In this document: piece by piece, positions 12,935 to 64,000 of the stretch
Numbering within the stretch: the first letter of the stretch is position 1
Layout: each line of letters opens with the position of its first letter
Assembly: GCA_948099385.1 (NCBI GenBank)
Contig: CANUEZ040000212.1
Location: 1,972,501 to 2,036,500 of the forward strand
Origin: Fasciola hepatica
Taxonomy: Eukaryota > Platyhelminthes > Trematoda > Plagiorchiida > Fasciolidae
Reading direction: 5' to 3'
Length of the DNA stretch: 64,000 nt
Program-made: the position numbers and the translations under genes
The notes under the pieces: generated by a model
Databases searched by the model: none
What the model was told of the DNA's origin: nothing
Seen by the model: the letters and a program-made list of their open reading frames with translations, nothing else

Positions 12935-12954
12935 CTAGTCAAGATGGCGTTCAC

Positions 12955-14565: not shown

Positions 14566-14607
14566 TTTGCGTGAATTTTCCTCGTTCCAAATAGATCTAT
14601 TGAGTAT

Positions 14608-17215: not shown

Positions 17216-17257
17216 ATACTCAATAGATCTATTTGGAACGAGGAAAATTCACGCAAA

Positions 17258-18873: not shown

Positions 18874-18915
18874 ATACTCAATAGATCTATTTGGAACGAG
18901 GAAAATTCACGCAAA

Positions 18916-21827: not shown

Positions 21828-21830
21828 AGT

Positions 21831-41690: not shown

Positions 41691-41834
41691 GCACCTTTTC
41701 ACCGTACTAATTCGAAAGCGCGTACCACAATGGTTTACGCCCCTGACCGCATGGTGATGGACGGCTACGGTACCCAAATTCTCCGTGGAAATATCCGATA
41801 GTCACAAAAGCTTGAGATTCAAAACAACCCTCGT

Positions 41835-42190: not shown

Positions 42191-42604
42191 CTTCTCCGTC
42201 GAGGCCTCTAGGTTGTAACCGACATTCGTAACTTGGCTAATTGGACAATTCGGGTGGCGTATCGTTTGGTTTGATCAGCAAGTGGTTCGTATTGAGGTAA
42301 GAAGAGTTGACCATGCACTGATGATCACGGAAACACCGTGAAATGGTTTCACCGTTGTTAGGAGCAACCGACAGTGCCCGTCTACTGAGCCGCCACTGAG
42401 ACCCGAACCTGGAGTGAACAAATGCAGGCGTCAAACCTAACCAAATTGCCCGGCTGAGTCAGAATGGTTTTCCAACTTCACCGAATGATATGAAGCCGTT
42501 CTCTAACTGTCTTTTCAAGAGATATAACCAGTCGACGGCATCGTGATCAGTGTCTATGGTGTACGACTTCGTAGAAACAGTGACAAAAGAGGCTTAAGGT
42601 TGGA

Positions 42605-43000
42605 AACAACATTCGAAACTTGGCTGTTCCATCGACTGGAGTAGTAGGAAATTTGACTTGGTCCTCAAATGATTCGTCATGAAGTAAAAAAGGTTGACTG
42701 GACACCGAGTATCTTGAAAGCACTGTACTATTGTTTGCTCCTTGATAATAATAATAATGATGATGATAATAATAATATGCTTTCCATCGTTCAACTTTTC
42801 ACACAACATTGTATAAGACTTGTGTAAGAAAGCGGCAGCCAATGAGGGCTGCCGGAAAGGGCGGTTGCAAGTACCGATACCCTGCGTCGTGGTTCAGATC
42901 CTTCGATGATGAAGTTCTGACCACGACCTGTCAGCGTTTTCCGAACACAATAGCCTCTTGGACGGATGGTGAGCGTGTTCTATTGTGGACGATTTCTCTG
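42605..43000. repeat. Dispersed ~350-bp repeat, copy 2
   Basis: Second copy of the 41835 repeat; a degenerate third trace lies at about 42225-42330. Contains a (TAATAA/TGATGA) microsatellite at 42746-42778. Confidence 0.55.
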
Positions 43001-44043
43001 TAGTAAGCTCAGGTCATGCATGTTTCAGTTTCGAGATAACCTCCGTAGATAGGTTGTTTCGTCCATTTGAGCAGTAGATGTAGTTTTTGTAACGTATAAA
43101 CGGTTAACAGAATGGGAGCTCAGAGGACAGCGCCCGTATGATAGGCTTTGTTCGGCGAAAAACAAGGCATACCAATCGGAACAAGAAGCGAGAAGTGTTC
43201 GATTATACAACGAAATAGGAGCGAATTATGAAGCAGAAGCACAGTAACATATATGTAACATCCACCATCACTTAGAAAACAAGGACTAGTATTTTGTGTT
43301 TCCGTGGATGAGAAATAGAAAATGGTGCCGGTTACCAGAGAGTGCGTTGTTACGCGTCACGGTTTGGAAGGTAATGAGATCTCACTTTTTGTTGTTGCAA
43401 GAGCAGGTTTTCAACGTTCGTTTCTGGTTCACCAGGATACTCTACTGGGTCAGAAACACTTGTTTGCAAATCAGACGTGAATGAGATGTCATTATCGAGG
43501 GAGAGTCAGTAAGAGTGAGACGGATGGTGCAGAAGTTGGTCGTTCTGCAGGGGCAAGATGACCAAGTGATACCATTCTCCCACGCTCATCAGAGGGACAT
43601 TTGAGCGTACTCGAGGTTGCTTTCCAGCGGTTCGACTTCCGCCACTATCGTATCATACTCGGACGAACGGATGTTTTTTTTTGATATGGCACTGGCGCCC
43701 AATATTATTAACCATTGACGTGAACTGATTCCAACGAAAGATTTTTGATGATTAATATGCATTCGTTCGTGGGGAGTCGGATTTAGAGCAGTACACAGCA
43801 ATGACCTGATGGCGTGCAGTGCCTCGAATAGTGCCAACTCTTTTTGACCAATGGCTAGGTTTCTCGGAGACAAAGGTACACAGATACAGTTTTGCATATT
43901 CTGCCACTCAGTCGTTCGACTTGACCGTTGCCCTGCTCGTCGTGCCGATCGTGCTTTCAGTCACTATCACGCGATTATCGTTCTTGAGCTGATCGAACTT
44001 GGCCTTGGGTTTCCAGAAATGAGAGTAGTGTGATTCGGAATCA
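43001..44043. other. No recognisable gene before the satellite array
   Basis: Nothing recognised on either strand; a minus frame at 43589-43897 lacks motifs. Confidence 0.45.
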
Positions 44044-45615
44044 GGGTTAGTGGTCATCTACGTGGTGGCCACAAAGACTGGAAGGGTGAGTGTGAGTAAG
44101 GAAGACGGATTGTGCGTGTGACACCTGAGGATAACTCCGTGTTGGCTGAGTGTGGAGAGCTTGTTCAACTTGAACAGCTGATGATATGTGCGCGTATTGT
44201 GACAAGGTTTAGAAGAAGGTTTTTTGTTTTTCTGAGGTTATTGGGGACGTGTTTTCTGTATAGAGTGTATAGGCCGTTGTCGTGGGTTCGTGACAGGATA
44301 GGGATTGTGCTCGGCCGAGCACAAAGAGTGAGAACTGGGAACGTTTGAACGAGATGAGGTGTGTATTGGAGGAACGCAGCGGGGTGCAGACGGTCTACAC
44401 AGTTTGAGCAAGTGGCGCCACCAAATTCTATAATTGTTCAGATGAAGAGATTTGTTAGTGTTTGTAATTGTGTGTGATATTGGTAGGACTAAAGTTGAGG
44501 TGGTTTAGTTCACAGTGGTGGACTCGGATGATGATGGAGGTCTTGTGTGTGTGCGTGATGGCGAATGGAGCACGAAGGCTTTTGATGGTAAGCGACGTAC
44601 ATAGAGTAAGCGCTATGTGAGCTTGAGTGGTGAGTGTTTTCGTTCCGATTCATGTGATGATTGTTCATGATTTGATTGAACTTGACTGAGGATTTGGAGG
44701 CATGGGAGTGGTGTAGTTGAACTGGATGTAATTATGAATGAGGGTTAGTGGCCATCTAGGTGGGTGGCCGGAGGGAGTGCTATTGGGAGTTTAAGTGGGA
44801 ATGTGAGTGTGAGATAGGATGAAGGATCGTGCGTGTGACACCTGAGGACAACTCCGTGTTGGCTGAGTGTGGAGAGCTTGTTCAACTTGAACAGTTTATG
44901 ATATGTGCGCGTATTGTGACAAGGTTTAGAAGAAGGTTTTTTGTTTTTCTGAGGTAACTGGGGACGCATTTTCTGTATAGAGTGTATAGGCCGTTGTCGT
45001 GGGTTCGTGACAGGATAGGGATTGTGCTCGGCCGAGCACAAAGAGTGAGAACTGGGAACGTTTGAACGAGATGAGGTGTGTGTTGGAGGAACGCAACGGG
45101 GTGCAGACGGTCTACACAGTTTGAGCAAGTGGCGCCACCAAATTCTATAATTGTTCAGATGAAGAGATTTGTTAGTGTTTGTAATTGTGTGTGATATTGG
45201 TAGGACTGAAGTTGAGGTGGTTTAGTTCACAGTGGTGGACTCGGATGATGATGGAGGTCTTGTGTGTGTGCGTGATGGCGAATGGAGCACGAAGGCTTTT
45301 GATGGTAAGCGACGTACATAGAGTAAGCGCTATGTGAGTTTGAGTGGTGAGTGTTTTCGTTCCGATTCATGTGATGATTGTTCATGATTTGAATGAACTT
45401 GACTGAGGATTTGGAGGCATGGGAGTGGTGTAGTTGAACTGGATGTAATTAGGAATGAGGGTTAGTGGCCATCTAGGTGGGTGGCCGGAGGGAGTGCTAT
45501 TGGGAGTTTAAGTGGGAATGTGAGTGTGAGATAGGATGAAGGATCGTGCGTGTGACACCTGAGGACGACTCTGTGTTGGCTGAGTGTGAAGAGTTTGTTC
45601 AACTTGAACAGTTGA
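44044..45615 (+). repeat. ~717-bp satellite, monomers without LINE
   Basis: The GGGTTAGTGG(C/T)CATCTA start recurs at 44044, 44742 and 45459 (spacing 698 and 717), and ATGATATGTGCGCG at 44181 and 44898 (717). Monomers 1 and 2 are uninterrupted; monomer 3 is split at 45615/45616 by the LINE. Minus-strand frames inside are not conserved as proteins. Each monomer holds a 20-bp perfect palindrome (for example 44305-44324). Confidence 0.9.
44305..44324. repeat. 20-bp perfect palindrome in the satellite monomer
   Basis: TTGTGCTCGGCCGAGCACAA is its own reverse complement. It is repeated unchanged in each later monomer that I checked (for example 49329-49348), including the GCGATTG variants, where only the flank changes. 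Confidence 0.9.
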
Positions 45616-46269
45616 CTACGAGACTGCGCCTTGACGTGGTGTGGTGGCTTGCGCGCCTCTATGACCGGAAGAGCTATGTAGGATGGCTTCTTTAAACCGG
45701 AGATGCAATCATGCCTGACAGGTCAATGGGTAGAGGTCAGACAAAGTTCAGTCTCCTGGTCCTCCAGGTTGGGGGTTGATTTGAGCTGGAAACACAATCG
45801 GCAAAATCAGTGGAAGAATAATTGATCCAAGCAAATAGGCTTCCACTAAGCCATCCCGCTGCCTTGCGGATAGGTTCTTGTTAGAACTAAAGGCTTTGGA
45901 TGAGGACCCTAATCGCTCTCCTGCTTTGTGGCTGGACACCCTAGCAGTGCCCGTTCAACATCTCCCATGAACTGCACGAATACAAAGAATTCCATACTGC
46001 ATCGGTCGTCGCGCAGGATAATCAGGACCGCGCTGCCCATTGAATCGAGCGGGGTTGGTAGTGGTAAGTGGGCTACTGCTCAGAGTTCCCTCTCTTTTAT
46101 TCAACCTTTGTCTTCTGTCCTCAACCACCTCTCTTTGCCCCATCTATCCACCCATAATGCTCCCACTGATAACACGGTCGATACCTCGCAACGATTCACT
46201 GTCAAATAGTGTCGGGAATAATCCTCTGTCTGGTAACTCACATTTCCTCAAGCCTCGTCAGCCTCTGAA

Positions 46270-47383
46270 TCTCGGCTCCTTCAACGTGCGTACACTCATG
46301 CAGGCCGGTCAGCCGGCGTGCCTAGCCCTCATATTAGATTCTCTGAAGATTGATGTCTGCTGCTTAAGTGAAACGCGTATCCAAGATTCGAGCAGTGTAA
46401 TTCAACTAACTGCTCCTGGTATCTCATCGAGGTATTTCCTGCGCACCTCAGGAGACGAAGCAGCTAGAGCTGTGGATCAACGTTGTGTATGAATTGTCTT
46501 GACTGACAAGGCTGAGGCTGCCCTTTTAGATTGGATCCCTGTTAACAGTCGTTTATGTGCTGTGAGACTCCAAGGGTCAGTTAGCGTTCGAAAGGATAGT
46601 TGCGTTAAGCGCGATTTGTTTGTGATCTCGGCGTACGCCCCAACGGACTGCAGCTCAGACGCGCAGAAAGATGATTTCTACGATGAACTCGGCACCCTCG
46701 TTTGCAGCAGTAAAGGTTCTGACATTGTAGTGCTAGCTGGTGACTTCAATGCACAAGTTGGCAAACTCAGTGCTTCAGAAGCCTGTTTAGGTGGGTGCTG
46801 TGCTTTACCCGCTGAGCGTACAGATAACGGGGATAGACTTCTCCAGTTTTGTGCAGACAATCGATTGTTCTTGTCTAGCATCAATTTCCGACACAGCTCG
46901 CGTCGCACAGCGACATGGCGCTCTAACTCTACAGGTACTTTGATTCAAATTGATCATATTGCCGTAAGCTACCGGTGGCGCAGTTCTGTTCAGAACTGTA
47001 GATCTTACTGGTCCACGTACGTAGAGTCGGACCATGCATTAGTTTTAATGCGATTATCTCTCCAGCTCCATGGTTATCGTCGCAAACCGCAAACCCGATT
47101 AGCCGTGCAACGTTTGTGTGATTCAGAAGTACGCACCCGTTATGAGCAGAAGTTAGAACATGAGCTAGGATCTACGACGAAGAGTAATGTAGATGAGCAT
47201 TGGGCTCATATCAAACAGGCGATGCACGTGGCAGCAGGTTTTGCCTGTGGTCCTAGATCCGATGTCCATCAAAGACACTGGATCTCGCAAGACAGCAAAG
47301 GCTTGACCGATGGGCCGAGTACTTCAAGGAACAGTTTAGCTGGCCGCACGCTAGTGCAGTTACTCCCGTGTCAACAACTGTGA
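46270..47383 (+). pseudogene. LINE APE-type endonuclease
   Basis: Nicks target DNA to prime reverse transcription. Motifs in order: NVRTL (46282), LSETRIQ (Glu), SAYAPTD, LAGDFNAQVG (about 46735-46763, Asp and Asn), RTDNGDRLLQFC, TATWRSN, QIDHIAVS and VESDHALV (Asp-His, about 47022-47043). Catalytic residues look intact. A TGA at 46490-46492 interrupts the frame after DQRCV, and the frame shifts before about 47313, so this copy is defective. Confidence 0.85.
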
Positions 47384-49044
47384 CTCCTTGGGTGGTGTCA
47401 CTTGAGCCCCCATCGGAAGTAGAAGTAGAGTCGAGCATTCGATTACTAAAGCGAGGGAAAGCGGCAGGTCCCGACGAACTTCCTCCAGTTCTTTTCAAAC
47501 TGGGTGGTGAGGCGTTGATAAAATCACTTACTGCCTTGCTCCGTGACATTTGGAACGAGGAGCGTATTCCGTTAATATAGAGCGAGTCATTGATTGTTCC
47601 CATCTTCGAGAAGGGAATACACAATGACTGTAGTAATCATCGTGGGATTAGCTTAATTCCGATAGTCACCAAAGTATTAGCTTCGATTTTGCTGCATCGT
47701 ATTACATCGGCTCGTGAGAGGAATGTCCGCGAGCAGCAGGCTGGATTCCGCCCAGGTCGAGGATGCATCGACCAGATTTTTACTCTTCGTCGACTACTTG
47801 AAACGCGTCACACACACCGTCGACCGACAATAATGCTTTTCTTAGACCTGAAAGACTCCTTCGATTCAGTTGATCGAACATCGCTTTTCAGTGTTCTTCA
47901 TCGAAAAGGTATGCCCCAGAAGTTCGTGAACCTACTGAGATCATTGTATTCTCATACTTCTGGCCGCGTTAGGGTTTACGGTGAACTATCCGGTCGGTTC
48001 GAAACGACCAGTGGTGTTCGACAGGGATGTCCTTTGTCTCCATTCCTGTTCAACTTCGTCGTGGACGAAATAATGGACAATGCGCAGCAAAATCTTCAGG
48101 ATGTATGCGTCGAACTAGGAAATAGTGAAAAGCTATGTGACCTGGATTACGCGGACGACGTTGTCTGCTTGTTCGAATGCACGGAACATGCTCAGCGTGC
48201 ACTAGATAATCTCGCAAGAGCTGTAGTTCCATTCGGCATGCGCTTTGCACCTTCAAAGTGCAAGGTGATGTTACGAGACTGGACGTCAACAATTCCGAGC
48301 TTGATGCTCGATGGGGAGGTGTTGTCAGTTGTCGACCACTTTATCTATCCCGGTAGCTGCGTGACGACGGATGGGAGCACAGTAGTAGAGGTGAGCACGC
48401 GGATATCCAAGGCTCGAGCGGCGTACGCTGAACTGAAGCATTTTTGGCGCCGATCTGATATTTCACTGAAGTTGAAAGGTCGTGTATACTGTGCTGCTGT
48501 GCGTTCAGTTTTGTTGTATGGTTGCGAAACTTGGAGTCTGCGTGCTGAAGATATTCGTCGTCTTGAGGTTTTTGACCATCGATGTTTGTGTAGTATCACT
48601 AGGATTGGGTGGAATAGCCGAGTAAGCAACGATGAGGTCAGAAAGCGAGTATTGGTTACTAATTCAGAGAACGTTCTGTCACAGCGTATCCAGCTTAGTA
48701 GACTTCGTTGGTTGGGACACGTGTTACGTATGGCAAACACACGTCTACCGTACCGTGTCCTATTCTCCGTTCCTCCTAGGGAGTGGAAGAGACCACGTGG
48801 AGGTCAACAGATGACGTGGCAGCGAGGAATGAGAAAATGTACAGCAGACTTGGGGGAAGTAAGTGCTTCACGTCTTCGTGGTTGGGGTCCAAAAGATCCG
48901 TCTACCAGTTGGCTGAAGACACTGAAGGATATGGCAGCGAACCGCGAGCAGTGGCGATCGTGTTGTCACTTTCTGTCGAATCAGAATGACTGGTCGATGT
49001 GTGTTTGCACAGTTAGACTGTGTACTTCGTGTGTTGGCTACTAG
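47368..49044 (+). pseudogene. LINE reverse transcriptase
   Basis: Reverse transcriptase used for target-primed synthesis. Front: EVESSIRLLKRGKAAGPDELPPVLFK, stop TAG at 47578-47580 (normally W in this position), then SLIVPIFEKG..NHRGISLIP (finger region), QAGFRPGRGCIDQIFTLR, MLFLDLKDSFDSVDR (first Asp), TSGVRQGCPLSPFLFNF, LDYADDVVCLF (48145-48165, YADD active site), FGMRFAPSKCK. After the polymerase: YGCETWSL, FDHRCLCSITRIGW and LRWLGHVLRM. The 484 codons from 47590 are uninterrupted to the stop at 49042-49044. Confidence 0.9.
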
Positions 49045-49203
49045 GGCATTCTTTCCTTTTCCCACCCCCATAGGTCCACTCCCTGTCCATCTTGTATATT
49101 CATACTTTCTAATTGAACGTGCAACATGGTGAGAAAGGCAGTGGTCAGTGGGGCTTGCCCTACTGTTTAACGCTGTACGACGACGACGACGATGATGATG
49201 ATG

Positions 49204-49921
49204 ATGATATGTGCGCGTATTGTGACTAGGTTTAGAAGAAGGTTTTTTTGTTTTTCTGAGGTAATTGGGGACGTGTTTTCTGTATAGAGTGTATAGGCCG
49301 TTGTCGTGGGTTCGTGACAGGATAGGGATTGTGCTCGGCCGAGCACAAAGAGTGAGAACTGGGAACGTTTGAACGAGATGAGGTGTGTATTGGAGGAACG
49401 CAGCGGGGTGCAGACGGTCTACACAGTTTGAGCAAGTGGCGCCACCAAATTCTATAATTGTTCAGATGAAGAGATTTGTTAGTGTTTGTAATTGTGTGTG
49501 ATATTGGTAGGACTGAAGTTGAGGTGGTTTAGCTCACAGTGGTGGACTCGGAGATGATGGAGGTCTTGTGTGTGTGCGTGATGGCGAATGGAGCACGAAG
49601 GCTTTTGATGGTAAGCGACGTACATAGAGTAAGCGCTATGTGAGTTTGAGTGATGAGTGTTTTCGTTCCGATTCATGTGATGATTGTTCATGATTTGATT
49701 GAACTTGACTGAGGATTTGGAGGCATGGGAGTGGTGTAGTTGAACTGGATGTAATTATGAATGAGGGTTAGTGGCCATCTAGGTGGGTGGCCGGAGGGAG
49801 TGCTATTGGGAGTTTAAGTGGGAATGTGAGTGTGAGATAGGATGAAGGATCGTGCGTGTGACACCTGAGGACGACTCTGTGTTGGCTGAGTGTGAAGAGT
49901 TTGTTCAACTTGAACAGTTGA
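49204..49921 (+). repeat. Satellite monomer of array unit 1
   Basis: 718 bp matching 44181-44897 in order and sequence, ending TTGAACAGTTGA immediately before the LINE part. Shows that the satellite is part of each amplified unit. Confidence 0.92.
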
Positions 49922-50183
49922 CTACGAGACTGCGCCTTGACGTGGTGTGGTGGCTTGCGCGCCTCTATGACCGGAAGAGCTATGTAGGATGGCTTCTTTA
50001 AACCGGAGATGCAATCATGCCTGACAGGTCAATGGGTAGAGGTCAGACAAAGTTCAGTCTCCTGGTCCTCCAGGTTGGGGGTTGATTTGAGCTGGAAACA
50101 CAATCGGCAAAATCAGTGGAAGAATAATTGATCCAAGCAAATAGGCTTCCACTAAGCCATCCCGCTGCCTTGCGGATAGGTTC

Positions 50184-51647
50184 TTGTTAGAACTAAAGGC
50201 TTTGGATGAGGACCCTAATCGCTCTCCTGCTTTGTGGCTGGACACCCTAGCAGTGCAGGTTGGTTCTGACATTGTGGTGCTAGCTTCGATTTTGCTGCAT
50301 CGTATTACATCGGCTCGTGAGAGGAATGTCCGCGAGCAGCAGGCTGGATTCCGCCCAGGTCGAGGATGCATCGACCAGATTTTTACTCTTCGTCGACTAC
50401 TTGAAACGCGTCACACACACCGTCGACCGACAATAATGCTTTTCTTAGACCTGAAAGACTCCTTCGATTCAGTTGATCGAACATCGCTTTTCAGTGTTCT
50501 TCATCGAAAAGGTATGCCCCAGAAGTTCGTGAACCTACTGAGATCATTGTATTCTCATACTTCTGGCCGCGTTAGGGTTTACGGTGAACTATCCGGTCGG
50601 TTCGAAACGACCAGTGGTGTTCGACAGGGATGTCCTTTGTCTCCATTCCTGTTCAACTTCGTCATGGACGAAATAATGGACAATGCGCAGCAAAATCTTC
50701 AGGATGTATGCGTCGAACTAGGAAATAGTGAAAAGCTATGTGACCTGGATTACGCGGACGACGTTGTCTGCTTGTTCGAATGCACGGAACATGCTCAGCG
50801 TGCACTAGATAATCTCGCAAGAGCTGTAGTTCCATTCGGCATGCGCTTTGCACCTTCAAAGTGCAAGGTGATGTTACGAGACTGGACGTCAACAATTCCG
50901 AGCTTGATGCTCGATGGGGAGGTGTTGTCAGTTGTCGACCACTTTATCTATCCCGGTAGCTGCGTGACGACGGATGGGAGCACAGTAGTAGAGGTGAGCA
51001 CGCGGATATCCAAGGCTCGAGCGGCGTACGCTGAACTGAAGCATTTTTGGCGCCGATCTGATATTTCACTGAAGTTGAAAGGTCGTGTATACTGTGCTGC
51101 TGTGCGTTCAGTTTTGTTGTATGGTTGCGAAACTTGGAGTCTGCGTGCTGAAGATATTCGTCGTCTTGAGGTTTTTGACCATCGATGTTTGTGTAGTATC
51201 ACTAGGATTGGGTGGAATAGCCGAGTAAGCAACGATGAGGTCAGAAAGCGAGTATTGGTTACTAATTCAGAGAACGTTCTGTCACAGCGTATCCAGCTTA
51301 GTAGACTTCGTTGGTTGGGACACGTGTTACGTATGGCAAACACACGTCTACCGTACCGTGTCCTATTCTCCGTTCCTCCTAGGGAGTGGAAGAGACCACG
51401 TGGAGGTCAACAGATGACGTGGCAGCGAGGAATGAGAAAATGTACAGCAGACTTGGGGGAAGTAAGTGCTTCACGTCTTCGTGGTTGGGGTCCAAAAGAT
51501 CCGTCTACCAGTTGGCTGAAGACACTGAAGGATATGGCAGCGAACCGCGAGCAGTGGCGATCGTGTTGTCACTTTCTGTCGAATCAGAATGACTGGTCGA
51601 TGTGTGTTTGCACAGTTAGACTGTGTACTTCGTGTGTTGGCTACTAG
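50184..51647 (+). CDS. Endonuclease-deleted LINE frame, array unit 1
   Basis: Open frame of 487 codons beginning at TTG (50184); the first ATG is codon 85, so initiation is uncertain. Residues 1-26 come from the LINE leader (LELKALDEDPNRSPALWLDTL), 27-34 (GSDIVVLA) from the endonuclease, and from 35 (SILLHRI) the reverse transcriptase begins, missing its finger motifs. Catalytic Asp at 89 (FLDLKD) and YADD at 190-193 are intact, as are the RQGCPLSPF and RLRWLGHVLRM segments. The stop is in VGY-TAG at 51645-51647. Compared with the full LINE at 45616, two internal stretches are gone. A truncated polymerase of this kind is unlikely to be active, but its frame is intact. Confidence 0.75.
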   Translation: MLELKALDEDPNRSPALWLDTLAVQVGSDIVVLASILLHRITSARERNVREQQAGFRPGRGCIDQIFTLRRLLETRHTHRRPTIMLFLDLKDSFDSVDRTSLFSVLHRKGMPQKFVNLLRSLYSHTSGRVRVYGELSGRFETTSGVRQGCPLSPFLFNFVMDEIMDNAQQNLQDVCVELGNSEKLCDLDYADDVVCLFECTEHAQRALDNLARAVVPFGMRFAPSKCKVMLRDWTSTIPSLMLDGEVLSVVDHFIYPGSCVTTDGSTVVEVSTRISKARAAYAELKHFWRRSDISLKLKGRVYCAAVRSVLLYGCETWSLRAEDIRRLEVFDHRCLCSITRIGWNSRVSNDEVRKRVLVTNSENVLSQRIQLSRLRWLGHVLRMANTRLPYRVLFSVPPREWKRPRGGQQMTWQRGMRKCTADLGEVSASRLRGWGPKDPSTSWLKTLKDMAANREQWRSCCHFLSNQNDWSMCVCTVRLCTSCVGY

Positions 51648-52785
51648 GGCATTCTTTCCTTTTCCCACCCCCATAGGTCCACTCCCTGTCCATCTTGTAT
51701 ATTCATACTTTCTAATTGAACGTGCAACATGGTGAGAAAGGCAGTGGTCAGTGGGGCTTGCCCTACTGTTTAACGCTGTACGACGACGACGACGATGATG
51801 ATGATGATGATATGTGCGCGTATTGTGACTAGGTTTAGAAGAAGGTTTTTTGTTTTTCTGAGGTAATTGGGGACGTGTTTTCTGTATAGAGTGTATAGGC
51901 CGTTGTCGTGGGTTCGTGACAGGATAGGGATTGTGCTCGGCCGAGCACAAAGAGTGAGAACTGGGAACGTTTGAACGAGATGAGGTGTGTATTGGAGGAA
52001 CGCAGCGGGGTGCAGACGGTCTACACAGTTTGAGCAAGTGGCGCCACCAAATTCTATAATTGTTCAGATGAAGAGATTTGTTAGTGTTTGTAATTGTGTG
52101 TGATATTGGTAGGACTGAAGTTGAGGTGGTTTAGCTCACAGTGGTGGACTCGGAGATGATGGAGGTCTTGTGTGTGTGCGTGATGGCGAATGGAGCACGA
52201 AGGCTTTTGATGGTAAGCGACGTACATAGAGTAAGCGCTATGTGAGTTTGAGTGGTGAGTGTTTTCGTTCCGATTCATGTGATGATTGTTCATGATTTGA
52301 TTGAACTTGACTGAGGATTTGGAGGCATGGGAGTGGTGTAGTTGAACTGGATGTAATTATGAATGAGGGTTAGTGGCCATCTAGGTGGGTGGCCGGAGGG
52401 AGTGCTATTGGGAGTTTAAGTGGGAATGTGAGTGTGAGATAGGATGAAGGATCGTGCGTGTGACACCTGAGGACGACTCTGTGTTGGCTGAGTGTGAAGA
52501 GTTTGTTCAACTTGAACAGTTGACTACGAGACTGCGCCTTGACGTGGTGTGGTGGCTTGCGCGCCTCTATGACCGGAAGAGCTATGTAGGATGGCTTCTT
52601 TAAACCGGAGATGCAATCATGCCTGACAGGTCAATGGGTAGAGGTCAGACAAAGTTCAGTCTCCTGGTCCTCCAGGTTGGGGGTTGATTTGAGCTGGAAA
52701 CACAATCGGCAAAATCAGTGGAAGAATAATTGATCCAAGCAAATAGGCTTCCACTAAGCCATCCCGCTGCCTTGCGGATAGGTTC

Positions 52786-54249
52786 TTGTTAGAACTAAAG
52801 GCTTTGGATGAGGACCCTAATCGCTCTCCTGCTTTGTGGCTGGACACCCTAGCAGTGCAGGTTGGTTCTGACATTGTGGTGCTAGCTTCGATTTTGCTGC
52901 ATCGTATTACATCGGCTCGTGAGAGGAATGTCCGCGAGCAGCAGGCTGGATTCCGCCCAGGTCGAGGATGCATCGACCAGATTTTTACTCTTCGTCGACT
53001 ACTTGAAACGCGTCACACACACCGTCGACCGACAATAATGCTTTTCTTAGACCTGAAAGACTCCTTCGATTCAGTTGATCGAACATCGCTTTTCAGTGTT
53101 CTTCATCGAAAAGGTATGCCCCAGAAGTTCGTGAACCTACTGAGATCATTGTATTCTCATACTTCTGGCCGCGTTAGGGTTTACGGTGAACTATCCGGTC
53201 GGTTCGAAACGACCAGTGGTGTTCGACAGGGATGTCCTTTGTCTCCATTCCTGTTCAACTTCGTCATGGACGAAATAATGGACAATGCGCAGCAAAATCT
53301 TCAGGATGTATGCGTCGAACTAGGAAATAGTGAAAAGCTATGTGACCTGGATTACGCGGACGACGTTGTCTGCTTGTTCGAATGCACGGAACATGCTCAG
53401 CGTGCACTAGATAATCTCGCAAGAGCTGTAGTTCCATTCGGCATGCGCTTTGCACCTTCAAAGTGCAAGGTGATGTTACGAGACTGGACGTCAACAATTC
53501 CGAGCTTGATGCTCGATGGGGAGGTGTTGTCAGTTGTCGACCACTTTATCTATCCCGGTAGCTGCGTGACGACGGATGGGAGCACAGTAGTAGAGGTGAG
53601 CACGCGGATATCCAAGGCTCGAGCGGCGTACGCTGAACTGAAGCATTTTTGGCGCCGATCTGATATTTCACTGAAGTTGAAAGGTCGTGTATACTGTGCT
53701 GCTGTGCGTTCAGTTTTGTTGTATGGTTGCGAAACTTGGAGTCTGCGTGCTGAAGATATTCGTCGTCTTGAGGTTTTTGATCATCGATGTTTGTGTAGTA
53801 TCACTAGGATTGGGTGGAATAGCCGAGTAAGCAACGATGAGGTCAGAAAGCGAGTATTGGTTACTAATTCAGAGAACGTTCTGTCACAGCGTATCCAGCT
53901 TAGTAGACTTCGTTGGTTGGGACACGTGTTACGTATGGCAAACACACGTCTACCGTACCGTGTCCTATTCTCCGTTCCTCCTAGGGAGTGGAAGAGACCA
54001 CGTGGAGGTCAACAGATGACGTGGCAGCGAGGAATGAGAAAATGTACAGCAGACTTGGGGGAAGTAAGTGCTTCACGTCTTCGTGGTTGGGGTCCAAAAG
54101 ATCCGTCTACCAGTTGGCTGAAGACACTGAAGGATATGGCAGCGAACCGCGAGCAGTGGCGATCGTGTTGTCACTTTCTGTCGAATCAGAATGACTGGTC
54201 GATGTGTGTTTGCACAGTTAGACTGTGTACTTCGTGTGTTGGCTACTAG
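52786..54249 (+). CDS. Endonuclease-deleted LINE frame, array unit 2
   Basis: Translates the same as unit 1 throughout; only silent differences seen (for example GAC/GAT in FDHRC near 53780). Confidence 0.75.
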   Translation: MLELKALDEDPNRSPALWLDTLAVQVGSDIVVLASILLHRITSARERNVREQQAGFRPGRGCIDQIFTLRRLLETRHTHRRPTIMLFLDLKDSFDSVDRTSLFSVLHRKGMPQKFVNLLRSLYSHTSGRVRVYGELSGRFETTSGVRQGCPLSPFLFNFVMDEIMDNAQQNLQDVCVELGNSEKLCDLDYADDVVCLFECTEHAQRALDNLARAVVPFGMRFAPSKCKVMLRDWTSTIPSLMLDGEVLSVVDHFIYPGSCVTTDGSTVVEVSTRISKARAAYAELKHFWRRSDISLKLKGRVYCAAVRSVLLYGCETWSLRAEDIRRLEVFDHRCLCSITRIGWNSRVSNDEVRKRVLVTNSENVLSQRIQLSRLRWLGHVLRMANTRLPYRVLFSVPPREWKRPRGGQQMTWQRGMRKCTADLGEVSASRLRGWGPKDPSTSWLKTLKDMAANREQWRSCCHFLSNQNDWSMCVCTVRLCTSCVGY

Positions 54250-55388
54250 GGCATTCTTTCCTTTTCCCACCCCCATAGGTCCACTCCCTGTCCATCTTGT
54301 ATATTCATACTTTCTAATTGAACGTGCAACATGGTGAGAAAGGCAGTGGTCAGTGGGGCTTGCCCTACTGTTTAACGCTGTACGACGACGACGACGATGA
54401 TGATGATGATGATATGTGCGCGTATTGTGACTAGGTTTAGAAGAAGGTTTTTTTGTTTTTCTGAGGTAATTGGGGACGTGTTTTCTGTATAGAGTGTATA
54501 GGCCGTTGTCGTGGGTTCGTGACAGGATAGGGATTGTGCTCGGCCGAGCACAAAGAGTGAGAACTGGGAACGTTTGAACGAGATGAGGTGTGTATTGGAG
54601 GAACGCAGCGGGGTGCAGACGGTCTACACAGTTTGAGCAAGTGGCGCCACCAAATTCTATAATTGTTCAGATGAAGAGATTTGTTAGTGTTTGTAATTGT
54701 GTGTGATATTGGTAGGACTGAAGTTGAGGTGGTTTAGCTCACAGTGGTGGACTCGGAGATGATGGAGGTCTTGTGTGTGTGCGTGATGGCGAATGGAGCA
54801 CGAAGGCTTTTGATGGTAAGCGACGTACATAGAGTAAGCGCTATGTGAGTTTGAGTGGTGAGTGTTTTCGTTCCGATTCATGTGATGATTGTTCATGATT
54901 TGATTGAACTTGACTGAGGATTTGGAGGCATGGGAGTGGTGTAGTTGAACTGGATGTAATTATGAATGAGGGTTAGTGGCCATCTAGGTGGGTGGCCGGA
55001 GGGAGTGCTATTGGGAGTTTAAGTGGGAATGTGAGTGTGAGATAGGATGAAGGATCGTGCGTGTGACACCTGAGGACGACTCTGTGTTGGCTGAGTGTGA
55101 AGAGTTTGTTCAACTTGAACAGTTGACTACGAGACTGCGCCTTGACGTGGTGTGGTGGCTTGCGCGCCTCTATGACCGGAAGAGCTATGTAGGATGGCTT
55201 CTTTAAACCGGAGATGCAATCATGCCTGACAGGTCAATGGGTAGAGGTCAGACAAAGTTCAGTCTCCTGGTCCTCCAGGTTGGGGGTTGATTTGAGCTGG
55301 AAACACAATCGGCAAAATCAGTGGAAGAATAATTGATCCAAGCAAATAGGCTTCCACTAAGCCATCCCGCTGCCTTGCGGATAGGTTC

Positions 55389-56852
55389 TTGTTAGAACTA
55401 AAGGCTTTGGATGAGGACCCTAATCGCTCTCCTGCTTTGTGGCTGGACACCCTAGCAGTGCAGGTTGGTTCTGACATTGTGGTGCTAGCTTCGATTTTGC
55501 TGCATCGTATTACATCGGCTCGTGAGAGGAATGTCCGCGAGCAGCAGGCTGGATTCCGCCCAGGTCGAGGATGCATCGACCAGATTTTTACTCTTCGTCG
55601 ACTACTTGAAACGCGTCACACACACCGTCGACCGACAATAATGCTTTTCTTAGACCTGAAAGACTCCTTCGATTCAGTTGATCGAACATCGCTTTTCAGT
55701 GTTCTTCATCGAAAAGGTATGCCCCAGAAGTTCGTGAACCTACTGAGATCATTGTATTCTCATACTTCTGGCCGCGTTAGGGTTTACGGTGAACTATCCG
55801 GTCGGTTCGAAACGACCAGTGGTGTTCGACAGGGATGTCCTTTGTCTCCATTCCTGTTCAACTTCGTCATGGACGAAATAATGGACAATGCGCAGCAAAA
55901 TCTTCAGGATGTATGCGTCGAACTAGGAAATAGTGAAAAGCTATGTGACCTGGATTACGCGGACGACGTTGTCTGCTTGTTCGAATGCACGGAACATGCT
56001 CAGCGTGCACTAGATAATCTCGCAAGAGCTGTAGTTCCATTCGGCATGCGCTTTGCACCTTCAAAGTGCAAGGTGATGTTACGAGACTGGACGTCAACAA
56101 TTCCGAGCTTGATGCTCGATGGGGAGGTGTTGTCAGTTGTCGACCACTTTATCTATCCCGGTAGCTGCGTGACGACGGATGGGAGCACAGTAGTAGAGGT
56201 GAGCACGCGGATATCCAAGGCTCGAGCGGCGTACGCTGAACTGAAGCATTTTTGGCGCCGATCTGATATTTCACTGAAGTTGAAAGGTCGTGTATACTGT
56301 GCTGCTGTGCGTTCAGTTTTGTTGTATGGTTGCGAAACTTGGAGTCTGCGTGCTGAATATATTCGTCGTCTTGAGGTTTTTGACCATCGATGTTTGTGTA
56401 GTATCACTAGGATTGGGTGGAATAGCCGAGTAAGCAACGATGAGGTCAGAAAGCGAGTATTGGTTACTAATTCAGAGAACGTTCTGTCACAGCGTATCCA
56501 GCTTAGTAGACTTCGTTGGTTGGGACACGTGTTACGTATGACAAACACACGTCTACCGTACCGTGTCCTATTCTCCGTTCCTCCTAGGGAGTGGAAGAGA
56601 CCACGTGGAGGTCAACAGATGACGTGGCAGCGAGGAATGAGAAAATGTACAGCAGACTTGGGGGAAGTAAGTGCTTCACGTCTTCGTGGTTGGGGTCCAA
56701 AAGATCCGTCTACCAGTTGGCTGAAGACACTGAAGGATATGGCAGCGAACCGCGAGCAGTGGCGATCGTGTTGTCACTTTCTGTCGAATCAAAATGACTG
56801 GTCGATGTGTGTTTGCACAGTTAGACTGTGTACTTCGTGTGTTGGCTACTAG
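55389..56852 (+). CDS. Endonuclease-deleted LINE frame, array unit 3
   Basis: Same 487-codon frame with private changes: RAEYIRR for RAEDIRR and LRMTNTR for LRMANTR. Still uninterrupted. Confidence 0.75.
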   Translation: MLELKALDEDPNRSPALWLDTLAVQVGSDIVVLASILLHRITSARERNVREQQAGFRPGRGCIDQIFTLRRLLETRHTHRRPTIMLFLDLKDSFDSVDRTSLFSVLHRKGMPQKFVNLLRSLYSHTSGRVRVYGELSGRFETTSGVRQGCPLSPFLFNFVMDEIMDNAQQNLQDVCVELGNSEKLCDLDYADDVVCLFECTEHAQRALDNLARAVVPFGMRFAPSKCKVMLRDWTSTIPSLMLDGEVLSVVDHFIYPGSCVTTDGSTVVEVSTRISKARAAYAELKHFWRRSDISLKLKGRVYCAAVRSVLLYGCETWSLRAEYIRRLEVFDHRCLCSITRIGWNSRVSNDEVRKRVLVTNSENVLSQRIQLSRLRWLGHVLRMTNTRLPYRVLFSVPPREWKRPRGGQQMTWQRGMRKCTADLGEVSASRLRGWGPKDPSTSWLKTLKDMAANREQWRSCCHFLSNQNDWSMCVCTVRLCTSCVGY

Positions 56853-57992
56853 GGCATTCTTTCCTTTTCCCACCCCCATAGGTCCACTCCCTGTCCATCT
56901 TGTATATTCATACTTTCTAATTGAACGTGCAACATGGTGAGAAAGGCAGTGGTCAGTGGGGCTTGCCCTACTGTTTAACGCTGTACGACGACGACGATGA
57001 TGATGATGATGATGATATGTGCGCGTATTGTGACTAGGTTTAGAAGAAGGTTTTTTTGTTTTTCTGAGGTAATTGGGGACGTGTTTTCCGTATAGAGTGT
57101 ATAGGCCGTTGTCGTGGGTTCGTGACAGGATAGCGATTGTGCTCGGCCGAGCACAAAGAGTGAGAACTGGGAACGTTTGAACGAGATGAGGTGTGTATTG
57201 GAGGAACGCAGCGGGGTGCAGACGGTCTACACAGTTTGAGCAAGTGGCGCCACCAAATTCTATAATTGTTCAGATGAAGAGATTTGTTAGTGTTTGTAAT
57301 TGTGTGTGATATTGGTAGGACTGAAGTTGAGGTGGTTTAGCTCACAGCGGTGGACTCGGATGATGATGGAGGTCTTGTGTGTGTGCGTGATGGCGAATGG
57401 AGCACGAAGGCTTTTGATGGTAAGCGACGTACATAGAGTAAGCGCTATGTGAGTTTGAGTGGTGAGTGTTTTCGTTCCGATTCATGTGATGATTGTTCAT
57501 GATTTGATTGAACTTGACTGAGGATTTGGAGGCATGGGAGTGGTGTAGTTGAACTGGATGTAATTATGAATGAGGGTTAGTGGCCATCTAGGTGGGTGGC
57601 CGGAGGGAGTGCTATTGGGAGTTTAAGTGGGAATGTGAGTGTGAGATAGGATGAAGGATCGTGCGTGTGACACCTGAGGACGACTCTGTGTTGGCTGAGT
57701 GTGAAGAGTTTGTTCAACTTGAACAGTTGACTACGAGACTGCGCCTTGACGTGGTGTGGTGGCTTGCGCGCCTCTATGACCGGAAGAGCTATGTAGGATG
57801 GCTTCTTTAAACCGGAGATGCAATCATGCCTGACAGGTCAATGGGTAGAGGTCAGACAAAGTTCAGTCTCCTGGTCTTCCAGGTTGGGGGTTGATTTGAG
57901 CTGGAAACACAATCGGCAAAATCAGCGGAAGAATAATTGATCCAAGCAAATAGGCTTCCACTAAGCCATCCCGCTGCCTTGCGGATAGGTTC

Positions 57993-59456
57993 TTGTTAGA
58001 ACTAAAGGCTTTGGATGAGGACCCTAATCGCTCTCCTGCTTTGTGGCTGGACACCCTAGCAGTGCAGGTTGGTTCTGACATTGTGGTGCTAGCTTCGATT
58101 TTGCTGCATCGTGTTACACCGGCTCGTGAGAGGAATGTCCGCGAGCAGCAGGCTGGATTCCGCCCAGGTCGAGGATGCATCGACCAGATTTTTACTCTTC
58201 GTCGACTACTTGAAACGCGTCACACACACCGTCGACCGACAATAATGCTTTTCTTAGACCTGAAAGACTCCTTCGATTCAGTTGATCGAACATCGCTTTT
58301 CAGTGTTCTTCATCGAAAAGGTATGCCCCAGAAGTTCGTGAACCTACTGAGATCATTGTATTCTCATACTTCTGGCCGCGTTAGGGTTTACGGTGAACTA
58401 TCCGGTCGGTTCGAAACGACCAGTGGTGTTCGACAGGGATGTCCTTTGTCTCCATTCCTGTTCAACTTCGTCATGGACGAAATAATGGACAATGCGCAGC
58501 AAAATCTTCAGGATGTATGCGTCGAACTAGGAAATAGTGAAAAGCTATGTGACCTGGATTACGCGGACGACGTTGTCTGCTTGTTCGAATGCACGGAACA
58601 TGCTCAGCGTGCACTAGATAATCTCGCAAGAGCTGTAGTTCCATTCGGCATGCGCTTTGCACCTTCAAAGTGCAAGGTGATGTTACGAGACTGGACGTCA
58701 ACAATTCCGAGCTTGATGCTCGATGGGGAGGTGTTGTCAGTTGTCGACCACTTTATCTATCCCGGTAGCTGCGTGACGACGGATGGGAGCACAGTAGTAG
58801 AGGTGAGCACGCGGATATCCAAGGCTCGAGCGGCGTACGCTGAACTGAAGCATTTTTGGCGCCGATCTGATATTTCACTGAAGTTGAAAGGTCGTGTATA
58901 CTGTGCTGCTGTGCGTTCAGTTTTGTTGTATGGTTGCGAAACTTGGAGTCTGCGTGCTGAAGATATTCGTCGTCTTGAGGTTTTTGACCATCGATGTTTG
59001 TGTAGTATCACTAGGATTGGGTGGAATAGCCGAGTAAGCAACGATGAGGTCAGAAAGCGAGTATTGGTTACTAATTCAGAGAACGTTCTGTCACAGCGTA
59101 TCCAGCTTAGTAGACTTCGTTGGTTGGGACACGTGTTACGCATGGCAAACACACGTCTACCGTACCGTGTCCTATTCTCCGTTCCTCCTAGGGAGTGGAA
59201 GAGACCACGTGGAGGTCAACAGATGACGTGGCAGCGAGGAATGAGAAAATGTACAGCAGACTTGGGGGAAGTAAGTGCTTCACGTCTTCGTGGTTGGGGT
59301 CCAAAAGATCCGTCTACCAGTTGGCTGAAGACACTGAAGGATATGGCAGCGAACCGCGAGCAGTGGCGATCGTGTTGTCACTTTCTGTCGAATCAGAATG
59401 ACTGGTCGATGTGTGTTTGCACAGTTAGACTGTGTACTTCGTGTGTTGGCTACTAG
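57993..59456 (+). CDS. Endonuclease-deleted LINE frame, array unit 4
   Basis: Same frame with HRVTPARE for HRITSARE near the fusion point. Identical at these sites to unit 5. Confidence 0.75.
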   Translation: MLELKALDEDPNRSPALWLDTLAVQVGSDIVVLASILLHRVTPARERNVREQQAGFRPGRGCIDQIFTLRRLLETRHTHRRPTIMLFLDLKDSFDSVDRTSLFSVLHRKGMPQKFVNLLRSLYSHTSGRVRVYGELSGRFETTSGVRQGCPLSPFLFNFVMDEIMDNAQQNLQDVCVELGNSEKLCDLDYADDVVCLFECTEHAQRALDNLARAVVPFGMRFAPSKCKVMLRDWTSTIPSLMLDGEVLSVVDHFIYPGSCVTTDGSTVVEVSTRISKARAAYAELKHFWRRSDISLKLKGRVYCAAVRSVLLYGCETWSLRAEDIRRLEVFDHRCLCSITRIGWNSRVSNDEVRKRVLVTNSENVLSQRIQLSRLRWLGHVLRMANTRLPYRVLFSVPPREWKRPRGGQQMTWQRGMRKCTADLGEVSASRLRGWGPKDPSTSWLKTLKDMAANREQWRSCCHFLSNQNDWSMCVCTVRLCTSCVGY

Positions 59457-60596
59457 GGCATTCTTTCCTTTTCCCACCCCCATAGGTCCACTCCCTGTCC
59501 ATCTTGTATATTCATACTTTCTAATTGAACGTGCAACATGGTGAGAAAGGCAGTGGTCAGTGGGGCTTGCCCTACTGTTTAACGCTGTACGACGACGACG
59601 ATGATGATGATGATGATGATATGTGCGCGTATTGTGACTAGGTTTAGAAGAAGGTTTTTTTGTTTTTCTGAGGTAATTGGGGACGTGTTTTCCGTATAGA
59701 GTGTATAGGCCGTTGTCGTGGGTTCGTGACAGGATAGCGATTGTGCTCGGCCGAGCACAAAGAGTGAGAACTGGGAACGTTTGAACGAGATGAGGTGTGT
59801 ATTGGAGGAACGCAGCGGGGTGCAGACGGTCTACACAGTTTGAGCAAGTGGCGCCACCAAATTCTATAATTGTTCAGATGAAGAGATTTGTTAGTGTTTG
59901 TAATTGTGTGTGATATTGGTAGGACTGAAGTTGAGGTGGTTTAGCTCACAGCGGTGGACTCGGATGATGATGGAGGTCTTGTGTGTGTGCGTGATGGCGA
60001 ATGGAGCACGAAGGCTTTTGATGGTAAGCGACGTACATAGAGTAAGCGCTATGTGAGTTTGAGTGGTGAGTGTTTTCGTTCCGATTCATGTGATGATTGT
60101 TCATGATTTGATTGAACTTGACTGAGGATTTGGAGGCATGGGAGTGGTGTAGTTGAACTGGATGTAATTATGAATGAGGGTTAGTGGCCATCTAGGTGGG
60201 TGGCCGGAGGGAGTGCTATTGGGAGTTTAAGTGGGAATGTGAGTGTGAGATAGGATGAAGGATCGTGCGTGTGACACCTGAGGACGACTCTGTGTTGGCT
60301 GAGTGTGAAGAGTTTGTTCAACTTGAACAGTTGACTACGAGACTGCGCCTTGACGTGGTGTGGTGGCTTGCGCGCCTCTATGACCGGAAGAGCTATGTAG
60401 GATGGCTTCTTTAAACCGGAGATGCAATCATGCCTGACAGGTCAATGGGTAGAGGTCAGACAAAGTTCAGTCTCCTGGTCTTCCAGGTTGGGGGTTGATT
60501 TGAGCTGGAAACACAATCGGCAAAATCAGCGGAAGAATAATTGATCCAAGCAAATAGGCTTCCACTAAGCCATCCCGCTGCCTTGCGGATAGGTTC

Positions 60597-62060
60597 TTGT
60601 TAGAACTAAAGGCTTTGGATGAGGACCCTAATCGCTCTCCTGCTTTGTGGCTGGACACCCTAGCAGTGCAGGTTGGTTCTGACATTGTGGTGCTAGCTTC
60701 GATTTTGCTGCATCGTGTTACACCGGCTCGTGAGAGGAATGTCCGCGAGCAGCAGGCTGGATTCCGCCCAGGTCGAGGATGCATCGACCAGATTTTTACT
60801 CTTCGTCGACTACTTGAAACGCGTCACACACACCGTCGACCGACAATAATGCTTTTCTTAGACCTGAAAGACTCCTTCGATTCAGTTGATCGAACATCGC
60901 TTTTCAGTGTTCTTCATCGAAAAGGTATGCCCCAGAAGTTCGTGAACCTACTGAGATCATTGTATTCTCATACTTCTGGCCGCGTTAGGGTTTACGGTGA
61001 ACTATCCGGTCGGTTCGAAACGACCAGTGGTGTTCGACAGGGATGTCCTTTGTCTCCATTCCTGTTCAACTTCGTCATGGACGAAATAATGGACAATGCG
61101 CAGCAAAATCTTCAGGATGTATGCGTCGAACTAGGAAATAGTGAAAAGCTATGTGACCTGGATTACGCGGACGACGTTGTCTGCTTGTTCGAATGCACGG
61201 AACATGCTCAGCGTGCACTAGATAATCTCGCAAGAGCTGTAGTTCCATTCGGCATGCGCTTTGCACCTTCAAAGTGCAAGGTGATGTTACGAGACTGGAC
61301 GTCAACAATTCCGAGCTTGATGCTCGATGGGGAGGTGTTGTCAGTTGTCGACCACTTTATCTATCCCGGTAGCTGCGTGACGACGGATGGGAGCACAGTA
61401 GTAGAGGTGAGCACGCGGATATCCAAGGCTCGAGCGGCGTACGCTGAACTGAAGCATTTTTGGCGCCGATCTGATATTTCACTGAAGTTGAAAGGTCGTG
61501 TATACTGTGCTGCTGTGCGTTCAGTTTTGTTGTATGGTTGCGAAACTTGGAGTCTGCGTGCTGAAGATATTCGTCGTCTTGAGGTTTTTGACCATCGATG
61601 TTTGTGTAGTATCACTAGGATTGGGTGGAATAGCCGAGTAAGCAACGATGAGGTCAGAAAGCGAGTATTGGTTACTAATTCAGAGAACGTTCTGTCACAG
61701 CGTATCCAGCTTAGTAGACTTCGTTGGTTGGGACACGTGTTACGCATGGCAAACACACGTCTACCGTACCGTGTCCTATTCTCCGTTCCTCCTAGGGAGT
61801 GGAAGAGACCACGTGGAGGTCAACAGATGACGTGGCAGCGAGGAATGAGAAAATGTACAGCAGACTTGGGGGAAGTAAGTGCTTCACGTCTTCGTGGTTG
61901 GGGTCCAAAAGATCCGTCTACCAGTTGGCTGAAGACACTGAAGGATATGGCAGCGAACCGCGAGCAGTGGCGATCGTGTTGTCACTTTCTGTCGAATCAG
62001 AATGACTGGTCGATGTGTGTTTGCACAGTTAGACTGTGTACTTCGTGTGTTGGCTACTAG
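60597..62060 (+). CDS. Endonuclease-deleted LINE frame, array unit 5
   Basis: Translates as unit 4. Shares with it the variants TTTTCCGTATAGA, GGATAGCGATTG and CTCACAGCGGTGG in the preceding satellite monomer. Confidence 0.75.
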   Translation: MLELKALDEDPNRSPALWLDTLAVQVGSDIVVLASILLHRVTPARERNVREQQAGFRPGRGCIDQIFTLRRLLETRHTHRRPTIMLFLDLKDSFDSVDRTSLFSVLHRKGMPQKFVNLLRSLYSHTSGRVRVYGELSGRFETTSGVRQGCPLSPFLFNFVMDEIMDNAQQNLQDVCVELGNSEKLCDLDYADDVVCLFECTEHAQRALDNLARAVVPFGMRFAPSKCKVMLRDWTSTIPSLMLDGEVLSVVDHFIYPGSCVTTDGSTVVEVSTRISKARAAYAELKHFWRRSDISLKLKGRVYCAAVRSVLLYGCETWSLRAEDIRRLEVFDHRCLCSITRIGWNSRVSNDEVRKRVLVTNSENVLSQRIQLSRLRWLGHVLRMANTRLPYRVLFSVPPREWKRPRGGQQMTWQRGMRKCTADLGEVSASRLRGWGPKDPSTSWLKTLKDMAANREQWRSCCHFLSNQNDWSMCVCTVRLCTSCVGY

Positions 62061-63200
62061 GGCATTCTTTCCTTTTCCCACCCCCATAGGTCCACTCCCT
62101 GTCCATCTTGTATATTCATACTTTCTAATTGAACGTGCAACATGGTGAGAAAGGCAGTGGTCAGTGGGGCTTGCCCTACTGTTTAACGCTGTACGACGAC
62201 GACGATGATGATGATGATGATGATATGTGCGCGTATTGTGACTAGGTTTAGAAGAAGGTTTTTTTGTTTTTCTGAGGTAATTGGGGACATGTTTTCTGTA
62301 TAGAGTGTATAGGCCGTTGTCGTGGGTTCGTGACAGGATAGGGATTGTGCTCGGCCGAGCACAAAGAGTGAGAACTGGGAACGTTTGAACGAGATGAGGT
62401 GTGTATTGGAGGAACGCAACGGGGTGCAGACGGTCTACACAGTTTGAGCAAGTGGCGCCACCAAATTCTATAATTGTTCAGATGAAGAGATTTGTTAGTG
62501 TTTGTAATTGTGTGTGATATTGGTAGGACTGAAGTTGAGGTGGTTTAGCTCACAGTGGTGGACTCGGATGATGATGGAGGTCTTGTGTGTGTGCGTGATG
62601 GCGAATGGAGCACGAAGGCTTTTGATGGTAAGCGACGTACATAGAGTAAGCGCTATGTGAGCTTGAGTGGTGAGTGTTTTCGTTCCGATTCATGTGATGA
62701 TTGTTCATGATTTGATTGAACTTGACTGAGGATTTGGAGGCATGGGAGTGGTGTAGTTGAACTGGATGTAATTATGAATGAGGGTTAGTGGCCATCTAGG
62801 TGGGTGGCCGGAGGGCGTGCTATTGGGAGTTTAAGTGGGAATGTGAGTGTGAGATAGGATGAAGGATCGTGCGTGTGACACCTGAGGACGACTCTGTGTT
62901 GGCTGAGTGTGAAGAGTTTGTTCAACTTGAACAGTTGACTACGAGACTGCGCCTTGACGTGGTGTGGTGGCTTGCGCGCCTCTATGACCGGAAGAGCTAT
63001 GTAGGATGGCTTCTTTAAACCGGAGATGCAATCATGCCTGACAGGTCAATGGGTAGAGGTCAGACAAAGTTCAGTCTCCTGGTCCTCCAGGTTGGGGGTT
63101 GATTTGAGCTGGAAACACAATCGGCAAAATCAGTGGAAGAATAATTGATCCAAGCAAATAGGCTTCCACTAAGCCATCCCGCTGCCTTGCGGATAGGTTC

Positions 63201-64000
63201 TTGTTAGAACTAAAGGCTTTGGATGAGGACCCTAATCGCTCTCCTGCTTTGTGGCTGGACACCCTAGCAGTGCAGGTTGGTTCTGACATTGTGGTGCTAG
63301 CTTCGATTTTGCTGCATCGTATTACATCGGCTCGTGAGAGGAATGTCCGCGAGCAGCAGGCTGGATTCCGCCCAGGTCGAGGATGCATCGACCAGATTTT
63401 TACTCTTCGTCGACTACTTGAAACGCGTCACACACACCGTCGACCGACAATAATGCTTTTCTTAGACCTGAAAGACTCCTTCGATTCAGTTGATCGAACA
63501 TCGCTTTTCAGTGTTCTTCATCGAAAAGGTATGCCCCAGAAGTTCGTGAACCTACTGAGATCATTGTATTCTCATACTTCTGGCCGCGTTAGGGTTTACG
63601 GTGAACTATCCGGTCGGTTCGAAACGACCAGTGGTGTTCGACAGGGATGTCCTTTGTCTCCATTCCTGTTCAACTTCGTCATGGACGAAATAATGGACAA
63701 TGCGCAGCAAAATCTTCAGGATGTATGCGTCGAACTAGGAAATAGTGAAAAGCTATGTGACCTGGATTACGCGGACGACGTTGTCTGCTTGTTCGAATGC
63801 ACGGAACATGCTCAGCGTGCACTAGATAATCTCGCAAGAGCTGTAGTTCCATTCGGCATGCGCTTTGCACCTTCAAAGTGCAAGGTGATGTTACGAGACT
63901 GGACGTCAACAATTCCGAGCTTGATGCTCGATGGGGAGGTGTTGTCAGTTGTCGACCACTTTATCAATCCCGGTAGCTGCGTGACGACGGATGGGAGCAC
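63201..64000 (+). CDS. Endonuclease-deleted LINE frame, array unit 6, cut by window end
   Basis: First 266 codons of the same frame, with ITSARE as in units 1-3 and an Asn for Tyr (DHFINPG) near 63965. Open to the window edge. Confidence 0.72.
   Translation, partial: MLELKALDEDPNRSPALWLDTLAVQVGSDIVVLASILLHRITSARERNVREQQAGFRPGRGCIDQIFTLRRLLETRHTHRRPTIMLFLDLKDSFDSVDRTSLFSVLHRKGMPQKFVNLLRSLYSHTSGRVRVYGELSGRFETTSGVRQGCPLSPFLFNFVMDEIMDNAQQNLQDVCVELGNSEKLCDLDYADDVVCLFECTEHAQRALDNLARAVVPFGMRFAPSKCKVMLRDWTSTIPSLMLDGEVLSVVDHFINPGSCVTTDGS

Follow-up and report, generated by a model that had tools for sequence, protein, structure and literature searches.

A dead LINE amplified together with its host satellite monomer into a composite tandem array in the trematode Fasciola hepatica

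The window considered here, a 64,000-nucleotide stretch of Fasciola hepatica DNA (positions 1972501-2036500 of contig C212), contains part of a tandem array in which a satellite monomer and a long interspersed nuclear element (LINE) together form the repeat unit. One dead LINE has been amplified together with its host monomer, and the array copies read have a single origin. Taken as a whole, the favoured explanation, a single insertion followed by amplification of the satellite-LINE pair and by a local deletion derivative, is given a probability of roughly 0.88. Comparable processes have been documented in mammals, birds and plants (PMC11436988, PMC9659126, PMC3648361). Here, one assembly displays the empty site, the single insertion, the amplified full unit, the deletion derivative and the capture of flanking DNA. 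Stop codons shared among the copies are the evidence for a single origin, and the step from dispersed transposable element (TE) to satellite unit becomes readable in a trematode. C212 and three further contigs, C174, C391 and C417, belong to one 1.5-Gb assembly of 656 contigs, and the stretches read extend to the contig end on C212 and, on the others, cover the terminal 52 kb (C174), the terminal 24 kb (C391) and 60 of 62 kb (C417). The satellite part is called SAT, and LINE nucleotides are counted from the SAT/LINE joint.

Periodicity in the window was analyzed by comparing every base with the base one unit downstream (lag analysis), and the anatomy of the units was obtained by local alignment. 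Lags of 2602, 2603 and 2604 together span about 47.5-61.4 kb of the window, and bins lying wholly within one lag have an identity of 0.99-1.0, compared with 0.20-0.29 elsewhere. This cover begins upstream of 49.2 kb, since a long LINE there already matches the first deleted unit through its 3' part. A sequence-only reading had described a 2602-2604-bp tandem of satellite and deleted LINE, and this is confirmed, with a SAT of about 711 bp (710-712 bp) and a LINE of 1892 bp. The units follow each other head to tail from 49209, 51812, 54414, 57017, 59621 and 62225, the sixth being truncated where the window ends, and their pieces are 99.2-100% identical to the reference pieces. In its near-constant unit length, head-to-tail order and high identity, the array is a composite TE-containing satellite, and its unit unites a recognizable TE and a non-TE satellite at a common joint, with other joints in some units. 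The joint between satellite and LINE also stands, but it is placed at 49919/49920, with an uncertainty of a few bases, instead of 49921/49922. Likewise, the LINE is internally deleted as proposed, but not by a single clean deletion, since LINE nt 1-337 are followed by a 24-bp bridge and then by the 3' 1531 bp, making two joints. Bare satellite does lie beside the array, as two full monomers and a fragment. The features concerned are as follows.

44086-44177 (+): SAT fragment (SAT nt 618-709) forming the left edge of the satellite, 89% identical to SAT; the C174 satellite begins with the same fragment
44186-44896 (+): bare satellite monomer 1, 98.3% identical to the array SAT
44903-45613 (+): satellite monomer 2, whose end borders the LINE insertion on the 5' side, where filled and empty sites were compared
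45614-49208 (+): long LINE lacking ~260 bp near nt 1676, with endonuclease and reverse transcriptase domains and a (GAC)n(GAT)n 3' tail
49209-49919 (+): SAT of 2.6-kb unit 1
49920-51811 (+): deleted LINE of 2.6-kb unit 1 (nt 1-337, 24-bp bridge, 3' 1531 bp)
51812-54413 (+): 2.6-kb unit 2 (SAT 51812-52521, deleted LINE 52522-54413)
54414-57016 (+): 2.6-kb unit 3
57017-59620 (+): 2.6-kb unit 4
59621-62224 (+): 2.6-kb unit 5, with zero base differences from unit 4 in the LINE 3' 1.53 kb
62225-64000 (+): 2.6-kb unit 6, incomplete in the window; its LINE continues to C212:2037328 (position 64828 in the joined sequence)

The same SAT/LINE joint is found in units of all four contigs, with empty sites alongside on C212 and C174. 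In the bare monomers of these two contigs, the empty site reads CAG(T/C)TGATGATATGTG or a one-base variant of it, whereas at the filled site shown CAGTTGA is followed by the LINE and this by (GAC)n(GAT)nATGTG. All 25 long array LINEs compared (13 on C212, 4 on C174, 2 on C391 and 6 on C417) carry an in-frame TGA at nt ~876 and a TAG at nt ~2229, while the three dispersed copies read have GGA and TGG at these positions. The dispersed copies come from a genome search in which 39 of 13,962 candidates were scored. Its LINE-body matches comprise 22 on the array contigs, with 97-99% identity to the query, and 19 on other contigs, with 94-95%. A tree built from the LINE 3' 1.53 kb groups all 31 array copies whose 3' part is complete into a single clade (support 0.995), outside which the three dispersed copies fall. 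Over this region, array copies differ from each other at 0-45 bases and from dispersed copies at 72-88, and dispersed copies differ among themselves at 62-69. The stop-codon and tree sets do not include the two C174 copies truncated at LINE nt 1145.

The LINE R2 inserts repeatedly at a fixed target in ribosomal DNA (rDNA), and a target-specific LINE could in the same way have entered each monomer at the same position. That the LINE starts at one SAT position on every array contig would agree with this, as would the match of the target TTGATGAT to the (GAT)n tail of the element. However, the two stops are common to all 25 long array copies and absent from the three dispersed ones read, the 31 array copies in the tree are a single clade, and no SAT was detected in the short flanks of any of the three dispersed copies. 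The shared stops and the single clade are at odds with recurrent insertion of the LINE into the satellite; independent R2-like insertions are rejected in favor of one dead lineage, and we regard them as extremely unlikely. An rDNA setting is unsupported as well: neither the window nor the scanned loci, 13 out of 27, gave a ribosomal RNA match that reached the gathering score.

Beyond the window, the C212 array runs for a further ~62 kb, to C212:2098698, and its main unit there is ~4.56 kb long and consists of SAT and a full LINE of ~3.85 kb. Units of SAT and full LINE are also present on C174, C391 and C417, with a length of 4.58-4.59 kb. The C212 array has 22 LINE-bearing units, namely the long one of the window with its ~260-bp deletion, nine deleted ones and 12 full or near-full ones, two of which are cut at the 3' side. 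Among the stretches read, the deleted unit occurs only on C212, interleaved with full units, and it is best read as a local deletion derivative of the 4.56-kb unit. The window had been interpreted as a time series, in which a long LINE preceded the amplified deleted LINE. This interpretation is not supported, the main amplified form outside the window being SAT with the full LINE, and the long LINE of the window is not the parent of the full units, since it alone among the 25 long copies lacks the ~260 bp that the other 24 keep. It may be the parent of the deleted units, from which the ~260-bp region is also absent. Only one base in the 3' 1.53 kb separates it from the next deleted unit, but parentage is not shown by this likeness, because exchange at the array edge or local homogenization also explains it.

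Other derivatives accompany the full units. Deletion joints differ between copies, and variant joints lie at the array edges. On C174, two ~6.26-kb units in tandem precede the full array (C174:4786001-4828169; L032, L031, L016-L018), each composed of SAT, LINE nt 1-1145 and a flank homologous to positions 39921-44085 of the window. On C417, a composite block recurs after 33.2 kb, with 99.87% identity over 26.5 kb (C417:1-60000; L022-L027). It comprises three full units of 4.59 kb each, ~5.8 kb of other DNA that includes a diverged stretch of SAT, and ~12.5 kb of near-perfect 119-bp satellite. The C212 and C174 arrays both pass into 119-bp satellite running to the contig ends, entering it at different break points, in the LINE on C212 and in SAT on C174. 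No run of three TTAGGG was found in the joined stretches scanned from C212, C174, C391 and C417. The arrays on C212, C174 and C391 may be alleles or separate loci; flank pieces of at least 250 bp matched between these contigs are about 88-98% identical, and shorter ones often less.

The arrays are under concerted evolution, with neighbors alike and arrays distinct, the neighbor test having been made on C212 only. There, adjacent units differ by a mean of 5.7 bases and non-adjacent ones by 11.7 (20 of the 22 units, two without a complete 3' part being omitted), and 0 of 10,000 shuffles gave so low a value for adjacent units. That adjacent units are the most alike is what unequal exchange or conversion predicts, and mosaic variant patterns are common to full and deleted units. 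Two array groups appear in the tree, C212 with C174 (support 0.948) and C391 with C417 (support 0.996). Further stops are private to sub-arrays, one in all three C174 copies and two in all eight C391/C417 copies compared. The data fit unequal crossing over, gene conversion and rolling-circle reinsertion alike. It could be argued that one or a few units were multiplied by the assembler, as the arrays sit close to the ends of contigs or on short ones, two neighboring deleted units are without a single base difference over 1.53 kb, and the two C417 stretches are nearly identical. However, most units are distinguished by private bases, indels and mosaics, the deletion joints differ among copies, and related arrays with their own private stops occur on four contigs. 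An assembler repeating one unit would not produce such differences, and an artifact of this kind is judged very unlikely; the copy number of the arrays in the assembly may nevertheless be wrong.

The long LINE of the window encodes a PF14529 endonuclease (E-value 1e-6) and a PF00078 reverse transcriptase (E-value 1.7e-34) on separate open stretches, and this combination of APE-type endonuclease and reverse transcriptase assigns it to the APE/RT-type LINEs (putatively RTE- or CR1-like). Among the best 120 of 869 matches, the closest animal-named relatives of the reverse transcriptase are from the flukes Dicrocoelium, Trichobilharzia and Schistosoma, at 57-61% identity for the best of each. The reverse transcriptases (P0006, P0008, P0013) also match, at 58%, entries filed under Streptococcus dysgalactiae in public data; our guess is that these are probably eukaryotic contamination of bacterial assemblies. 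Two of the three dispersed copies start matching at LINE nt 469 and 484, the third read stretch ending before that point, and LINE nt 1-468, counted with the LINE here, may not be the element's own 5' end. In the 2.6-kb units, the two shared stops happen to lie in the deleted part. Among the nine deleted units, the 3' part that they have in common (454 codons compared) has 10 polymorphic codons that are non-synonymous and five that are synonymous, and these changes are read as neutral, with no sign of a constrained protein, although the numbers are small. A kept function of the 500-amino-acid frame in the deleted units is thus not supported.

Some observations weigh against a single insertion of a dead element. 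A 500-codon frame is open in seven of the nine deleted units (it has 496 codons in the eighth and is split in the ninth), and the changes are too few for a test of selection. Ratios of non-synonymous to synonymous change (dN/dS) are 0.42-0.50 for the four pairs that compare one array group with the other and 0.77 for the one pair of C212 and C174, values below 1 that are based on few differences; the three pairs of dispersed copies give 0.29-0.41. Moreover, the dispersed set comprises only three of the 19 scored copies, with short flanks. SAT was found only on the four array contigs among the 39 candidates scored, and LINE insertions into SAT may exist elsewhere. The arrays are most likely without coding function.

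We infer the exact insertion site, the order of events before amplification and the exchange mechanism as follows. A single retrotransposition event would have placed a LINE inside a monomer of the ~717-bp satellite, at TTGATGAT, a target that would adjoin a match to the element's own (GAT)n tail, and the inserted copy would have carried, or soon acquired, the two in-frame stops. The pair of SAT and LINE, about 4.56-4.59 kb, has since served as the repeat unit and been amplified head to tail through recombination, with unequal crossing over, gene conversion or rolling-circle reinsertion as candidate routes, and homogenized. In one array, most of the LINE 5' half was lost from a unit, and the resulting 2.6-kb form went on to spread locally, giving what the window contains. 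Elsewhere, the same process has incorporated flanking DNA (6.26-kb unit, C174) and the 119-bp satellite (33.2-kb block, C417).

LINE pieces in satellite monomers and composite arrays that contain a TE are known from other organisms. In the bovine 1.709 and 1.711 satellites, a mobile element in the satellite monomer was amplified with it, in a vertebrate and with different elements. Satellite-like W-elements have reportedly been described in Schistosoma mansoni. The sheep Y-chromosome centromeric repeat has a ~2.5-kb tandem unit with a 171-bp TE segment containing BOV-A2 and BovB, and resembles the Fasciola unit in combining a LINE piece with non-TE DNA at similar length; it is, however, a centromere by methylation evidence, whereas the Fasciola array has a LINE of 1.9-3.9 kb set within a satellite monomer, and that satellite also persists in LINE-free form (PMC11436988). 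The maize repeats CRM1TR and CRM4TR are also retrotransposon pieces in tandem, locally homogenized and with variants private to loci, but they are made of long terminal repeat (LTR)-untranslated region pieces of LTR elements, with no host satellite in the unit (PMC3648361). Reviewed TE-derived satellites include the chicken CR1 HinfI repeat and the cetacean L1 satellite, which likewise have LINE sequence within the monomer; their monomers resemble part of a LINE, whereas in Fasciola a whole or half LINE is joined to a separate satellite (PMC9659126). In the trematode Himasthla elongata, the LINE piece CR1-rng is enriched in heterochromatin, and its location within tandem arrays is only hypothesized; the fragment itself is not tandem, in contrast to the Fasciola LINE (PMC8392823). 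No description of the SAT-LINE array was found in literature titles and the openings of abstracts. Altogether, the array is a well-preserved new case of the already known TE-containing composite satellite.

Selection might instead maintain the composite arrays, for example as (peri)centromeric DNA, with the LINE part providing transcription or size. The arrays adjoin the 119-bp satellite runs that reach the C212 and C174 ends, and the sheep Y centromere is formed by a 2.51-kb composite repeat of LINE and short interspersed nuclear element in 47 units (PMC11436988). However, the LINE reading frames are decaying, and selection is considered rather unlikely. A bolder and similarly doubtful proposal is that the SAT-LINE arrays and the 119-bp satellite are trematode (peri)centromeric DNA now being rebuilt, the dead LINE having been co-opted into a repeat unit of the centromere and the three edges (2.6, 6.26 and 33.2 kb) being separate attempts at a new higher-order repeat.

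The satellite was also considered as a known structured RNA or RNA gene and rejected: Rfam at gathering score gives only a transfer RNA (tRNA) in the window, and a permissive RNA scan covering 44050-52200 yielded three weak hits that did not reach their cut-offs and are taken as chance. The tRNA, a tRNA-Thr (GGT) at 39227-39299 (+), lies in the left flank of the array, and the homologous C391 flank also has a tRNA (L019:8757-8829). Further from the array, two similar long retroelement copies with gag/pol-like frames lie in opposite orientation at 8421-14658 (-) and 17165-24109 (+), and they resemble BEL/Pao LTR elements. A 1658-bp direct repeat lies at 17165/18823, and matching sequence is found on C174 as well (L033). 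Finally, a dimer of a 194-bp tandem repeat with 94% matches occupies positions 31520-31906 of the window.

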